A stretch of 64,000 nucleotides of DNA from Brachyhypopomus gauderio (Eukaryota; Chordata; Actinopteri; Gymnotiformes; Hypopomidae). Each line of letters starts with the position of its first letter. Positions within the stretch are counted from its first letter, which is position 1. The stretch spans positions 16,343,611 to 16,407,610 of the forward strand of contig NC_135228.1 of NCBI RefSeq assembly GCF_052324685.1, written 5' to 3'. The notes below the pieces were generated by a model. The model ran no database searches. It was not told the origin of the DNA and saw only the letters and a list, made by a program, of their open reading frames with translations. A program made the position numbers and the translations under genes. Of this stretch, positions 19,021 to 44,967 are shown piece by piece.

Positions 19021-19150
19021 CACGACGTCATGACGTAGATATCGGCTGGACCGGCGGCGTCATGACGTAGATATCAGCTGGCCGGCGGCGTCATGACGTA
19101 GCAATCAGCTGGACGGCAGCGTCATGACGTAGCTGCTGCACGGCGGCGTC
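19021..19150. promoter_or_regulatory. Tandem CGTCATGACG repeats before abhd11
   Basis: Four tandem units of about 27-32 bases, each beginning with the palindrome CGTCATGACG followed by TAG and a 'cagctgg-cggcg' part. The palindrome is two inverted TGACG half-sites, the CREB/ATF half-site. The first unit starts GACGTCATGACGT, which also holds seven of eight bases of a full CRE. The array ends about 100 bases before the abhd11 start codon in a CpG-rich stretch, so it lies in the promoter. Confidence 0.6.
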
Positions 19151-25144: not shown

Positions 25145-28100
25145 TCAGTTCAGAGAGATTGTTTGAAAACTGTCCTCACTGCTTCTGCCCGGGGTCTGAG
25201 ACTCACAAGGGCTGCTACCGGCGGACTGGGCAAAGTTGTCCCGGGATGCCCGAGACGTGCGCCCCCGTCGCAGTCGTTCTTTCCAGCGCTGGGCCACTGG
25301 CGTGTTGGGGGACTGGGAGCCTGAAGTGGATGCTCGGCTGGGGGATGGCGACTGAACTGGGCTCGGTTGTTTAGAGCGCCGCAGTACACCGAAACCTTTG
25401 GGCTTCTTCTGGGTTTGTTCTGCCTGCTGCTGACTCATGACATGGTGGTGAATGATGGTCTGCACATCATCCTGTTAAAATTACAGAACCAGTAATATTA
25501 ACAAAAAACAAAAGCTATGAACCTGGTCAGAATCAGATATTAAGAAGTTATAGCCCCTGAAGGACTGAAAGTGGGGTAGTCATATTTTAATTACAATCTC
25601 AATTAGTAGGAGAAGTTACCAGAATATAATTAAACACATTGGCTCTTGTGTTTTAAGGAACAGTGTTGGAAGCTATGCACAGTCCAGATGGCCATTCTGG
25701 CTCCAGACCCTATAATCCTGCAGTGACACAGCTAGTGCAACCAGCTGCTTCACACCCTTTTGGGCCATACAGTAATCATAGTCTTTGATTTGAGGAATCA
25801 AAATATTTTTGTGAGATTTTTTCTTGTCTATGTTTATTAATAGTTAGAATGATATGCAATTAGATGGGTATAATATTTAGGCACGGATAGGCTGTCTCAG
25901 TTCTGAAAATTAAAAGGCTTAAATTAAAATGTTGAGTGGCACAACATACTTCAAATGTTACCTTTAGCAGGTTCAACCCACCTATACAGTACAGTGTAGA
26001 CTAATATTCAGTGTGACTAGTTTCTAGAGCACCTTTAGCAGGTTCAACCCACCTATGCAGTACAGAGTAGACTAATATTCAGTGTGACTAGTTTCTACAG
26101 CACCTTTAGCAGGTTCCACCCACCTATACAGTACAGTGTAGACTAATATTCAGTGTGACTAGGTTCTAGAGCACCTTTAGCAGGTTCAACCCACCTATAC
26201 AGTACAGTGTAGACTAATATTCAGTACGACTAGGTTCTAGAGCACCTTTAGCAGGTTCAACCCCCCTATACAGTACAGTGTAGACTAATATTCAGTGTGA
26301 CTAGGTTCTAGAGCACCTTTAGCAGGTTCAACCCACCTATACAGTACAGTGTAGACTAATATTCAGTATGATTAGGTTTTAGAGCACCTTTAGCAGGTTC
26401 CACCCACCTATACAGTACAGTGTAGACTAATATTCAGTGTGACTAGTTTCTACAGCACTTTTAGCAGGTTCCACCCACCTATACAGTACAGTGTAGACTT
26501 GTATTCAGTATGACTAGTTTCTAGAGCCCCTTTAGCAGGTTCCACCCACCTATACAGTACAGTGTAGACTAATATTCAGTACGACTAGGTTCTAGAGCAC
26601 CTTTAGCAGGTTCAACCCCCCTATACAGTACAGTGTAGACTAATATTCAGTGTGACTAGGTTCTAGAGCACCTTTAGCAGGTTCACCCCACCTATACAGT
26701 ACAGTGTAGACTAATATTCAGTACGATTAGGTTTTAGAGCACCTTTAGCAGGTTCCACCCACCTATACAGTACAGTGTAGACTAATATTCAGTGTGACTA
26801 GTTTCTACAGCACTTTTAGCAGGTTCCACCCACCTATACAGTACAGTGTAGACTAATATTCAGTGTGACTAGGTTCTAGAGCACCTTTAGCAGGTTCGAC
26901 CCCCCTATACAGTACAGTGTAGACTTGTATTCAGTATGACTAGTTTCTAGAGCACCTTTAGCAGGTTCCACCCACCTATACAGTACAGTGTAGACTACTA
27001 TTCAGTACGACTAGGTTCTAGAGCACCTTTAGCAGGTTCGACCCCCCTATACAGTACAGTGTAGACTTGTATTCAGTATGACTAGTTTCTAGAGCACCTT
27101 TAGCAGGTTCCACCCACCTATACAGTACAGTGTAGACTAATATTCAGTGTGACTAGTTTCTACAGCACTTTTAGCAGGTTCCACCCACCTATACAGTACA
27201 GTGTAGACTAATATTCAGTGTGACTAGGTTCTAGAGCACCTTTAGCAGGTTCAACCCACCTATACAGTACAGTGTAGACTAATATTCAGTGTGACTAGGT
27301 TCTAGAGCACCTTTAGCAGGTTCCACCCACCTATACAGTACAGTGTAGACTAATATTCAGTGTGACTAGGTTCTAGAGCACCTTTAGCAGGTTCAACCCA
27401 CCTATACAGTACAGTGTAGACTAATATTCAGTATGATTAGGTTTTAGAGCACCTTTAGCAGGTTCCACCCACCTATACAGTACAGTGTAGACTAATATTC
27501 AGTGTGACTAGTTTCTACAGCACTTTTAGCAGGTTCCACCCACCTATACAGTACAGTGTAGACTAATATTCAGTGTGACTAGGTTCTAGAGCACCTTTAG
27601 CAGGTTCAACCCACCTATACAGTACAGTGTAGACTACTATTCAGTACAATTAGGTTCTAGAGCACCTTTAGCAGGTTCAACCCACCTATACAGTACAGTG
27701 TAGACTAATATTCGATATGACTATAGTTTCTACAGCACCTTTAGCAGGTTCAACCCACCTTCCAGGCCTCCAGCTCAATGGCCATCTCCAGCCTACTCTG
27801 CACAGCCTCCAGCAGCTGATTGTTCAACAACATCAGTTCTGTCTTACTTTTCAGAAGCTCAGACTCCATAGCTTTTTTCCTGTCAGAAACATTTACATAC
27901 ACAACATGTAAAATTCTTTTCAGCAAGACCATTCCACGTGTGAGTTACATCTATCTGCATTTTGTATTACACTGAATTTACTCACTCCAAAACTATGGAC
28001 TTACTTTGCAAGAGCATCATCCCTGTCCCGTAGAGCTTGCTGTAATATCACTCCATCATCCTCAACCTGCCCATCTTTGGTTTTTCTCTGTGAACGATGT

Positions 28101-29909
28101 TTTTTTCATTAAGACTCCTTTCTGATTCACACAAAGCTGACCGTGGTTTCATAAGATTCACACAGACTGATGCCAGTTCTGCTCAAATGGACAAATTTCC
28201 CCAAAAGCAGAACTGGGGTTTTGCAGGGTCGTGTGCTGCTGCTGAGTGTGAGACTCACATGAGCTGTGTGATTGAAGGCGATCGTGCGTGCTACATTCTG
28301 GAGCTGGAGCAGTGCAGCATCCATTGGGTTGCCCAGAGAGACAGGCTCTGCAGCTGATTCCATATCAGTCAGAGGCAACAGTAGCTTTACTATGGACTGA
28401 ATCTCCTCTGTTACCTATCAATTAATGGAAATAATAATGTACCAAAGTAAGTATACAAAAATAATCCTGAACTTATTTTTATAAAGAATGACACAAGAAT
28501 GGAAAGCTTTAAAATATGCTCTTGAATAAAATGTAGCTACCTCGAATAAAAATAAGTTAGTCAGCAGAGTCTAAATAAAAACAGACTGCATGGAGGAACC
28601 TGTCAATTGGTCTCACCCGTTCTCTTTGCTGACTCCAGATCAGTCCGTCATGACTCTGTTCTTGTAGTTTATCTACCTGAGCCTTTATCTTGAGACTCCT
28701 ACGTCGGGACAGCTCCACCTCCCGACGCACCTGCTTTAACTGCAGGTGTAGAGAATGAGTCAGGAACACACAGGCCACACCTTCTTATTCATATGCATAC
28801 AGTGCCAACCATTTGATGTGCTGTCTATTATAAATTGAACAGTTCACAATTCAGACAACAAACGTGGGCGTATTGCACCAAACATTCTCTTAAATTGCAG
28901 ATGGCAATGCAGAACATAATGTGATAGTCTTGTGGCCATAGCTACTTTAGGATCAGGCTTAGCCCACGTCAAGTACAGGGTGTATACCTACATATACATC
29001 ACCTGAGACCTTGCAAATCCAGATTCCACAATTGGAATCTGAGCATTCCAGCTGACCCTCAAAGAATTCAGTTAACTTGTGTCTTTGGTTCTGTTAGACA
29101 GCATGGGCTAAAATACACGGAATGCAACATTATCCATGTGAAAATGAAATCAAGACAAGGCCAAGACTGAAATGGATACTTTTCAGGATGGTGCCGACAC
29201 ATCTTTAAGTTTTCATAAAGGTAAATAACTCTCTGAATATCCTAATGTCCAGACCACCAGACCAAGATAAACACAAATAGGCCAATAACTAGATCAAGAC
29301 AATTTGTTTTCCTACTATTGACAGATCAGGGCCATATCATCAAAACATCTCTGATTACACAACAGCAACCAAGAATGACTTGATGCAGTATTTCATACTT
29401 CAGGAGAGAACATGCAAAGAGAGGGAATAATAATTCAATAAATAAACCATTAAATATTATGAAAACAAGATAACAGATTCTTAATTGTTATACACAAGGA
29501 ATAAACCCTGTTTCAGGTCTTCCAAAATTATTTTGTGAATGCAAAACCAAGCCTGAACTTAACATTCTCTCACCGTGTCTGACACAGGGCTGGACACTCG
29601 TCTGCGAAGGGGACTCCCACTTCGGAGGAGGTCTGGTAAGGCTTCGTCCAGGTACGCCCGGATGGGCTTATTCAAAGATGGGTCTGGACCCGACTTAAGA
29701 GTCAAGCGCTCCATTCCATCAGCTTGAGCTATCACACCGGGGCTCTCACTGTCCTTATCTTCTACCAGATGCTCCTGGCCCTCGTCCACTACAGAAAGTG
29801 GTACGTTCAAAGTGTTCCTGTTTGTATGCTTGAAGTCAACTTCTTCCATGGAAGAAACACGCCCTGGCTCTGGATCATCCTCACTTATCTTCATTTGTAT
29901 CTGCGCCAT
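25145..29909 (-). CDS. Coiled-coil protein, possibly BICD-like adaptor
   Basis: Six minus-strand exons join in phase: 29909-29574, 28739-28617, 28414-28259, 28087-28005, 27879-27759 and 25471-25145, giving 381 aa. The start is the ATG at 29909 (MAQIQMKISEDD); an upstream in-frame GTG is not used. Residues 1-112 are acidic and disordered with a basic patch (SPLRRRVSSPVS). Residues 113-270 are heptad-rich coiled coil (LKQVRREVELSRRRSLKIK; KKAMESELLKSKTELMLLNN). The C-terminal 108 residues start DDVQTIIHHHV and become Ser/Pro/Arg-rich. The stretch LLEAVQSRLEMAIELEAWKD resembles, from memory, the C-terminal coil of BICD-family-like cargo adaptors (BICDL), so a dynein-adaptor role is a guess. I do not recognise it firmly. 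The gene model itself is well supported by six exons with GT-AG ends. The last intron contains the 71-bp minisatellite. Confidence 0.75.
25960..27760. repeat. 71-bp minisatellite, about 25 copies
   Basis: Tandem array in the last intron of the coiled-coil gene. The period is 71 bases, measured between successive 'cctttagcaggttc' words. Units vary at a few sites ('gtgtgactagg', 'gtacgactagg', 'gtatgattagg', 'gacttgtattc'). A marked variant recurs at 26371, 26726 (5 units later) and 27436 (10 units later), pointing to multi-unit duplication. The array runs up to the splice donor of the exon at 27759-27879, and the sense strand of most units contains AG-GTGGGT, the sequence of that donor. Confidence 0.95.
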
Positions 29910-40204: not shown

Positions 40205-40930
40205 CCTCGCCAGTCCTTCATACCACAGTTATTAGGGACTGGTTAGTTGAGATGGCCATCAGATCAGTTTCTATAGTTATCTTCTTCCCTGAACATAAGG
40301 TACAGATTTTCTGGAAAGTCATTTTAAATATCTTGCAAAAGAACAAAATAAAACACCAAAAGGTTGATTTGTTATTAACAATTGAGCATTTATAATTCCG
40401 TGCAAAATGTTCAAATTCTTTAAAAGTAATCGGATTACAATTTGGATTATAATTGTCACAGATTCCAGAGAGATATTTTTAAACTATTTGTGCAAACCAG
40501 TATGCTCTTAAGTCACATTTTCACGTCACATTTAACTGGAATACTATACAGAAATCTGTTGGGATGGCTACAAGCTTCCATCCGTTCCTCCTCACAGATT
40601 TACTCCAGCTTGTTCAGGTTGGTTAGATGACAGTCATGGAGTCATTTTTCAAGTACTAACAAAATTCGTGATGGGACTGAGATATGGACCTTTACTAGAC
40701 TAGAACATTTTCCTACATGTTGCTCAACCACCACTGTGTTGCTTAGTGCTTGGGATCATTGTCTTGCAGAAAGGTGGAGTTTTTTCCAGCTTTAGGTTTT
40801 TTGCCTAAGGAATGTTGTATCTCCTTAGATATGTATTGTGCATCCTCATCTGATGACCAGTCCCTGCTGGGGGAAAGCATCCCCACAATACGATGCTGCT
40901 GTCCTCTCTGTAACTCGTTAAACATGACTG
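40205..40930 (-). mobile_element. Tc1-like transposon remnant, first copy
   Basis: Minus-strand degenerate Tc1 transposase beginning immediately downstream of tmem179b. The recognisable part at 40930-40743 reads GMLSPSRDWSSDEDAQYISK then KPKAGKNSTFLQDNDPKH, the conserved QQDNDPKH region with the second catalytic Asp. Downstream, near 40560-40620, come codons matching the family's C-terminal 'LNELE-FCKEEW' part. It is frame-broken and the terminal repeats are not clear. The 5' side runs into the 32-bp minisatellite. Confidence 0.7.
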
Positions 40931-41395
40931 CTATACTCTCTGTAACTCGTTAAACGTGACTGCTGTCCTCTCTGTAACTCGTTAAACATGACTGCTGTCC
41001 TCTCTGTAACTCGTTACACATGACTGCTGTCCTCTCTGTAACTCGTTAAACATGACTGCTATACTCTCTGTAACTTGTTAAACGTGACTGCTGTCCTCTC
41101 TGTAACTCATTAAACGTGACTGCTATACTCTCTGTAACTCATTAAACGTGACTGCTGTCCTCTCTGTAACTCATCAAACGTGACTGCTGTCCTCTCTGTA
41201 ACTCGTTAAACATGACTGCTGTCCTCTCTGTAACTCGTTAAACGTGACTGCTGTCCTCTCTGTAACTCATCAAACGTGACTGCTGTCCTCTCTGTAACTC
41301 GTTAAACATGACTGCTGTCCTCTCTGTAACTCGTTAAACATGACTGCTGTCCTCTCTGTAACTCATTAAAGTTGACTGCTGTCCTCTCTGTGGCT
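40905..41395. repeat. 32-bp minisatellite, about 15 copies
   Basis: Unit 'gactgctgtcctctctgtaactcgttaaacat' type, period 32, with variants ctatactct, gttaaacgtg and catcaaacg. The minus strand of the unit reads SYREDSS/ELQRGQQ, the same codons found just before the Tc1 IILWGCFSPAGTG region at 44860-44885, so the unit comes from the transposon. Confidence 0.92.
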
Positions 41396-43732: not shown

Positions 43733-44967
43733 CATACAGTAGAATTTTATGTACCTCCTCATACCTTCCTTAAAAAAGGAAAAAGGGAAAACAAATTTTC
43801 ATGCTTTGACAGAACCCTTCTTCCACCGCCTGGCCCGTACCTTGTGACCTCGCCAGTCCTTCATACCACATTATTATTATTATTATTATTAGGGACTGGT
43901 AGTGTTGAGATGGTCATCGGATCAGTTTCTAGTTATTCCCTTTACCTGAACATAAGTGATGTGAGAGTCATTAAAGCAGTGACTGCTGTCCTCTCTGTAA
44001 CTCGATAAACGTGACTGCTATACTCTCAAACTCGTTAAACGTGATTGCTGTCCTCTCTGTAACTCATTAAAGGTGACTTCTGTCCTCTCTGTAACTCGTT
44101 AAACGTGACTGCTATACTCTCTGTAACTCGTTAAACGTGACTGCTATACTCTCTCCAACTCGTTAAACGTGATTGCTGTCCTCTCTGTCACTCATTAAAC
44201 GTGACTGCTGTCCTCTCTGTAACTCGTTATACCTTGTTACCTCGCCAGTCCTTCATACCACAGTTATTAGGGACTGGTTAGTTGAGATGGCCAAAATATC
44301 TTGCAAAAGAACAAAATAAAACACCAAAAGGGTGATTTGTTATTAACAGTTGAGCATTTACAATTCCATGCAAAATGTTTAAATTCTTTAAAAGCAATCA
44401 GATTACAATTTGGATTATAAATGTCACAGATTCCGGACAGATATTTAAAAATTATTTTTGCAAACCAGTATGCTCTTAAAGTAACATTTTCACGTCACAT
44501 TTAACTGGAACACTATACAGAAATCTGTTGGGATGGCTACAAGCTTCCATCCGTTCCTCCTCACAGATTTACTCCAGGTTGTTCAGGTTGGTTAGATGAC
44601 AGTCATGGAGTCATTTTTCAAGTACTAACAAAATTCGTGATGGGACTGAGATATGGACCTTTACTAGACTAGAACATTTTCCTACATGTTGCTCAACCAC
44701 CACTGTGTTGCTTAGTGCTTGGGATCATTGTCTTGCAGGTGGAGTTTTTTTCCCCAGCTTTAGGTTTTTTGCCTAAAGAATGTAGTATCTCCTTAGATAT
44801 GTATTGTGCATCCTCTATCTGATGACCAGTCCCTGCTGGGGAAAAGCATCCCCACAATATGATGTTGCTGTCCTCTCTGTAACTCATAATCATACAGTAG
44901 AATTTTCTGTACCTCCTCATACCTTCCTTAAAAAAGGAAAAAGGGAAAACTAATTTTCATGCTTTGA
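43733..44967. repeat. Rearranged copy of the tmem179b 3' region
   Basis: Mosaic of blocks also present at 40.17-41.4 kb. 43809-43847 repeats the last coding bases and stop of tmem179b (T-E-P-F-F-H-R-L-A-R-T-L), followed by its 3' UTR with a (TTA)n expansion. 43976-44230 is a second 32-bp minisatellite of about eight units. 44230-44292 is a third piece of the tmem179b end, in which the stop TGA has become TTA. 44293-44885 repeats the Tc1 remnant. 44890-44967 repeats 43733-43807 itself. No open gene results. Confidence 0.85.
44693..44885 (-). mobile_element. Tc1-like transposase remnant, second copy
   Basis: The minus strand reads SYREDSNIILWGCFSPAGTG followed by EDAQYISKEILHSLGKKPKAGEK, closer to an intact Tc1 reading frame than the copy at 40743-40930. 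It is frameshifted right after, where the conserved DNDPKH should be. It is part of the duplicated block, not an independent insertion. Confidence 0.8.

Follow-up and report, generated by a model that had tools for sequence, protein, structure and literature searches.

The stretch of DNA analysed here (referred to as the window) represents 64,000 nucleotides of the Brachyhypopomus gauderio genome, and includes a BICDL-like gene on its minus strand, the final coding intron of which harbours a tandem array. The splice sites of this host gene were deduced from the sequence and its reading frame. The penultimate coding exon (27759..27879, minus strand, 121 nt), delimited by its translation (KKAMESELLKSKTELMLLNNQLLEAVQSRLEMAIELEAWK, terminating in MAIELEAWK), by its acceptor (TTTCTGACAG/G, the slash indicating the junction) and by a phmmer comparison with PDB, ends in phase 0 at position 27759, where the coding strand reads CTGGAAG/GTGGGTTGAACC. 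The last coding exon (25145..25471, minus strand; DDVQTIIHHHV as its first residues), placed by sequence, follows the acceptor TTTTAACAG/G and is closed by the stop codon TGA at 25147-25145. When the last exons were joined and compared with PDB by phmmer, BICD family-like cargo adapter 1 was retrieved (E 2.4e-17), while a Pfam search with the exon parts supplied yielded nothing above the family cut-offs (sub-threshold IL32, E 0.1). The host intron, as delimited by the predicted splice sites and the limits provided by TRF, extends over 2287 bp (25472..27758, minus strand), 1799 bp (79%) of which belong to the array (25960-27758), the intron minus array amounting to approximately 490 bp. Past the array, the intron contains an AATAAA hexamer (25833..25838, minus strand; found by sequence) and an ATTAAA starting at 25591.

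The array itself (25960..27760, minus strand), defined by TRF and by dissection into units, has a period of 71 bp, 25.3 copies, a match of 93% and a score of 3052, which is far beyond chance, and it consists of head-to-tail units within the range of roughly 10-100 bp that characterizes a minisatellite. Read in the coding orientation, it opens with a 73-bp unit adjoining the exon, after which come 24 units, each of 71 bp, and lastly a partial unit of 24 bp, and the dissection revealed that every unit bears AG/GTGGGT or a variant thereof. On the coding (minus) strand, the start of the array is the real 5' splice site (..CTGGAAG/GTGGGTTGAACCTGCTAAAGGT..), predicted from the sequence as AG/GTGGGT at 27753..27760 (minus strand) with its GT at 27758-27757, and because the two coincide the donor is part of the array unit. 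The overlap between array and exon is restricted to AG, being the final two exon bases. An earlier note on this DNA had described the array as starting flush with the exon donor, a claim which is borne out by the end of the exon at 27759 and by the AG/GTGGGT found there.

Among the 26 octamer positions of the array, 21 (the real donor and 20 decoys) correspond to AGGTGGGT, four to AGGGGGGT and one to AGGTGGGG. The 21 occurrences of AGGTGGGT, all inside the array and on the minus strand, account for its full number in the window, the remainder of which contains none on either strand. The same note had counted about 21 of 25 units as intact and four as altered to a C/G run: the number of intact octamers stands, the total has to be corrected to 26 positions, and the four altered units are those with AGGGGGGT, to which the single further variant AGGTGGGG is to be added. 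Unit dissection furthermore identified a 24-bp end copy (AGGTGGGTTGAACCTGCTAAAGGT) on the exon side (27737..27760, minus strand) and an identical one where the array terminates away from the exon (25960..25983, minus strand), the far-end partial unit thus repeating the opening 24 bases of the array; one simple duplication event involving a 71-bp segment does not suffice to explain these identical ends. One 142-nt stretch of two units was found to be structurally unremarkable (z of -0.66 for the RNA fold and +0.90 for the DNA fold), inverted repeats of at least 12 nt within 25400-28200 are limited to one 13-nt pair, and the window produced no Rfam match at the gathering score.

The strength of the donor-like sites was estimated as a duplex energy with the 5' end of U1, using what we take to be its sequence and a program that leaves the pairing register unforced. 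The real donor yielded -9.9 kcal/mol, and 20 of the 25 decoys yielded -9.8 or -10.9 kcal/mol, being either stronger than the real site or weaker by no more than 0.1 kcal/mol, while one of the remaining decoys scored -9.2 and four scored -6.0 kcal/mol. That 20 decoys equal or exceed the real donor is supported as far as U1 pairing energy alone is concerned; when the remaining GTs on the minus strand of the window (3790 in number) are considered, 0.37% attain the energy of the real site. The intron opens in phase 0 with GTG GGT TGA, the in-frame TGA representing the third codon, and for this reason any decoy employed as a plain alternative donor would add an immediate stop to the reading frame. 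Use of the first decoy (GT at 27684..27685, minus strand) is predicted to generate an exon of 194 nt in which 64 nt separate the stop from the new junction, and use of the second an exon of 265 nt in which this distance is 135 nt. By the general rules of nonsense-mediated decay (NMD), such decoy-extended products with a premature stop would be NMD substrates.

The relationships among the 24 full units, which comprise 14 distinct sequences, were assessed by comparing units at lags of 1-15. Mean identity is highest at lag 15 (0.967), followed by lag 5 (0.953) and lag 10 (0.952), and ranges from 0.928 to 0.938 at the remaining lags; when the order of units was shuffled, a procedure which covered lags 5 and 10, the observed identity was equalled in 36 and 147 of 5000 shuffles, respectively. 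The longest exact self-matches measure 235 bp at lag 15, 192 bp at lag 5 and 173 bp at lag 10, against at most 131 bp at any other lag of this range. The combination of top identity and longest self-matches at lags 5, 10 and 15 shows that blocks of five units were copied, and the three lines of evidence (lag identity, shuffles and exact self-matches) uphold the higher-order period of five units that had previously been proposed. Inspection by eye showed that the first unit differs in length and carries several private changes, and that a T variant at unit position 9 is carried by units 0-2 and again by the final pair (24 and 25); the odd first unit and the variant shared by both ends fit an array with old edges and a younger interior. 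The columns corresponding to the donor show no greater conservation than other columns: among the 71 eight-column windows, 34 (including the donor's own) are as invariant as the donor octamer or more so. The degree to which the decoys are conserved accordingly provides no evidence for selection.

The refuting case named in the earlier note, a dispersed match of the 71-bp unit, was sought throughout the 796.5-Mb assembly and was absent. A 301-bp query that encompassed the exon edge and part of the array gave 11 matches and a 215-bp array query gave 12, all of which (self-matches included) map to the array locus, in a search that passes over very common words and scores one candidate place each time. 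These results are strong but not complete evidence that the unit is restricted to a single locus, and a dispersed satellite family was rejected on the same grounds, the unit having no other loci in this search, in which common words are skipped. Elsewhere in the window, the best match to a 143-bp array query was 12 bp long (E 0.40). The window contains further repeats: at 40896-41391 and 43979-44229 arrays of one 32-bp unit lie in two copies of a repeated element, with a 596-bp stretch beside them that is 94.8% identical between the copies, and a translated piece ending in FLQDNDPKH resembles a Tc1/mariner transposase. At 19026-19150 a unit of about 31 bp is repeated in tandem, with four occurrences of the palindrome CGTCATGACG, which is presumably CRE-like; exon-like reading frames on the plus strand lie downstream.

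For comparison, homologs of the host gene were retrieved from the same genome by protein searches, so that the comparison set consists of paralogs, of which, the searches scoring best candidates only, there are at least three. A BICDL paralog on a different chromosome (contig C19) has an exon (8948415-8948540) of 57% identity and a last exon (8947057-8947305) that is weak when taken alone (E 0.04), and a third homolog on contig C7 displays 43% identity (E 0.0017). The PDB matches to BICD family-like cargo adapter 1 have E values of 2.4e-17 for the gene in the window and of 5.9e-14 and 9.8e-6 for the two other homologs, whereas matches on contigs C12, C14 and C3 (E 2.7 to 7.2) were not significant and were excluded from the homolog count.

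At the homologous donor of the C19 paralog lies an array of 75 bp x 7.9 copies with a 92% match (C19:8947852-8948431, corresponding to L040:938-1517). Its real junction reads AACTGGAGGCCTGGCAG/GTACGT, and the unit takes in the tail of the exon: in the seven further units the exact match with this tail extends over 17, 17, 17, 8, 8, 8 and 1 nt, such that six of the seven repeat 8-17 exon bases along with the donor. Five of these further units have GTGCGT as their donor, one has GTGCAT and the last has GTAAGC, and the U1 pairing of these donors (-6.8 to -8.0, with -7.9 for the real site) is weaker than that of the sites in the window array. The intron portion of the C19 unit is abundant in CCCTAA-like words. 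A genome search with the unit returned its own locus only (4 of 4 matches). The 71-bp and 75-bp units are without detectable similarity, their alignment score being reached by 559 of 1000 shuffles. In the C7 homolog, the corresponding donor is strong (U1 pairing of -12.2), the intron measures 131 bp, and an array at this position is absent. The start of the C7 intron (GTGGGTGAACC) is akin to that in the window (GTGGGTTGAACC), a resemblance which, being equalled by 211 of 5000 shuffles, was dismissed as at most a hint of the ancestral donor. Separate arrays at the homologous donor are thus present in two of the three BICDL homologs found.

The abundance of minisatellites in this genome was estimated from a 200-kb sample consisting of 20 loci of 10 kb, located at 2.00-2.01 Mb of contigs C1-C20. 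Arrays with a period of 20-200 and at least three copies occupy 15.9% of this sample, and, on slightly wider limits, 3.4% once the five of 20 loci with at least 20% cover are removed and 1.4% of the window minus the 71-bp array. Very large minisatellite tracts are located in L018, L034, L032:6695-10000 and L035:6275-8779, and two of the 20 loci are almost entirely array. Among 26 arrays derived from the 20 loci and the window, two (including the window's own array) had a strong U1 site when both strands were considered, compared to 4.6 expected from shuffles. Donor-like sites are thus not over-represented in arrays, and there is no support for a genome-wide rule by which donors seed repeats. 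One of the 26, L036:2273-2706 (in C20:2000001-2010000; 111 bp x 3.9), which falls below the U1 threshold, contains an exon-like tail followed by CAG/GTGATA in its unit, and was rejected as a third donor array owing to a frame break in the exon-like stretch and the lack of a PDB match.

The array in the window is best explained as a donor-anchored intronic minisatellite, which lies over the predicted donor of the penultimate exon and probably grew from the donor-proximal stretch. Two structural features expected of a donor-anchored variable number tandem repeat (VNTR) of the ABCA7/IFI6 kind are present, namely an array that begins at the exon's own (predicted) 5' splice site and units bearing donor-like sites of similar strength, as judged by U1 pairing. 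The proposed sequence of events would commence with tandem duplication of the donor-proximal stretch within the host gene, and growth would then have occurred by unequal exchange or slippage, in part as blocks of five units. Such an array may be tolerated because the exon-proximal donor is intact and would be the usual winner through exon definition. By analogy with ABCA7, splicing would be mostly correct, some use of the first decoys would lengthen the exon and halt translation at once, producing an NMD substrate, and longer arrays would possibly lower expression. Since the unit shares AG alone with the exon, the origin of the window array from the donor region rests on its flush start and on its absence elsewhere. 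The earlier proposal of a duplication that started at the exon edge is supported by these two observations and, indirectly, by the C19 units that include exon tail. The presence of the C19 array at the homologous donor suggests that this exon edge may be prone to such duplication.

Several other explanations have to be weighed, of which the most probable concerns the paralog pair and does not conflict with donor-based growth: neutral minisatellites may have landed on two donors by coincidence in a minisatellite-rich genome. An array that covers a donor must begin near the exon edge because a longer coding extension would be purged, and arrays at large hold no excess of donor-like sites (2 of 26 as compared to 4.6 expected). 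How remarkable a second donor array would be depends on the cover assumed: at the full 15.9% of the 200-kb sample it is less so, whereas at 1.4-3.4%, the values obtained on the other limits, an array over the homologous donor of the second gene would be expected in only a few per cent of cases. We consider coincidence to be as likely as not, and it remains a serious rival as regards the pair. That both arrays descend from one array older than the gene duplication would account for the shared intron, the shared donor and the near-equal periods (71 and 75 bp), but is very improbable considering that the units are dissimilar (559 of 1000 shuffles score as high), that their register with respect to the exon differs (AG alone in one, up to 17 nt in the other) and that the C7 homolog, with its intron of 131 bp, is without an array at the donor.

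Two further alternatives attribute a role to the repeated donors. In a telescripting scenario, the array would be a selected element that recruits U1 against premature intronic polyadenylation, and the 20 decoys with strong U1 pairing energy and the location of the AATAAA, 143 nt past the last decoy and 1920 nt from the real donor, are in keeping with this; the protective range of U1 in Drosophila has, according to the portions of the source consulted, a median of about 500 nt (PMC4889658). Nevertheless, the donor columns are without excess conservation, and if the array were removed the AATAAA would lie approximately 120 nt from the real donor, from which it follows that the array itself creates the gap to be bridged. 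As far as can be judged from sequence, the AATAAA and ATTAAA past the array would permit but not support such a role, which we regard as exceedingly doubtful. An equally slim chance is accorded to recursive splicing, in which each unit would act as a zero-length exon AG/GT and the intron would be removed stepwise with the mRNA unchanged. With the exception of the variants listed above, the units do read TATAG/GTGGGT, and at the one junction considered (27685), 12 of the 20 bases before the AG are pyrimidines, as compared to 8-14 of 20 at the gene's five acceptors; on the other hand, inspection by eye showed neither a continuous pyrimidine tract nor a clear branch site, and the intron is just 2.3 kb long.

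Growth of the window array from its donor remains the preferred reading, and a further-reaching interpretation of the pair would be that minisatellites are born repeatedly at the donor of this BICDL exon, where two paralogs independently made arrays of decoy donors, by seeding at the junction or by retention for the tuning of expression. This interpretation is tentative and rather unlikely. If it were true, a property of the sequence or one linked to transcription would seed duplication at the junction or, alternatively, a poison-donor array would repeatedly be retained, its length tuning the expression of the adapter. The BICDL pair constitutes a natural replicate, in which two arrays unlike in sequence and length share one donor while a third homolog is without an array, and, unless the pair is coincidental, splice donors can seed minisatellites. 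The three BICDL genes, when followed across species, would offer a test of exon edges as birthplaces of repeats, as well as of how a donor is chosen among some twenty equal sites. No array at a BICDL donor was encountered in the literature, in queries that did not contain the gene name, and its absence from print is not claimed.

A number of published systems, each taken here from parts of the source cited, bear comparison with the window array. The VNTR in intron 18 of human ABCA7, the first two bases of which are the canonical GT of the exon-18 donor, is a C-rich, length-polymorphic repeat of a 25-bp unit (23.7 units in the reference), and has been reported to increase Alzheimer risk (PMC5954066). 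A donor situated one unit further on is usable and causes one-unit retention, a frameshift and a premature stop, and with increasing length of the VNTR the skipping of exon 19 increases and expression decreases, while one-unit retention is constant and NMD is unaffected (PMC5954066). The two arrays are alike in starting at the donor of an exon and in their number of units (23.7 in ABCA7 and 25.3 here), but differ in that effects on splicing were measured for the 25-bp unit of ABCA7, whereas the 71-bp unit described here occupies the last coding intron and was studied by sequence alone; furthermore, the next exon is in this case the last coding one, and skipping it would require another 3' end. 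The minisatellite of human IFI6 (6-16/G1P3) is reportedly, to go by its title, also the subject of a paper by Turri (1995). In IFI6, two downstream units are used as donors, giving rise to three mRNAs (PMC4526556), and it thus resembles the window array in that repeat units of a minisatellite supply several splice donors, yet differs in that those downstream donors are in use, whereas decoy use is predicted here to lead to an immediate stop. Other cases are more remote. At the 5' end of MSTN-2 intron 1 of the sea bream Sparus aurata a block of about 150 bp occurs in one or two copies (PMC3045353), which is similar in that a repeat block opens an intron of a fish gene, and different in its dimensions (about 150 bp x 1-2), repeated donors not being described in the parts of that source consulted. 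Tandem duplication of AGGT-bearing DNA is a route of intron gain by which new donor/acceptor pairs are created (PMC3443670), whereas the repeats in the window sit within an existing intron and no new one is apparent. The consulted parts of a report on worm minisatellites near alternative exons (PMC4039745), and of PMC2915984, PMC5126111 and PMC12783039, contain nothing decisive for the window array. A donor-anchored design is thus already known from ABCA7 and IFI6, and it is its recurrence in sister genes that is the unexpected and interesting part.
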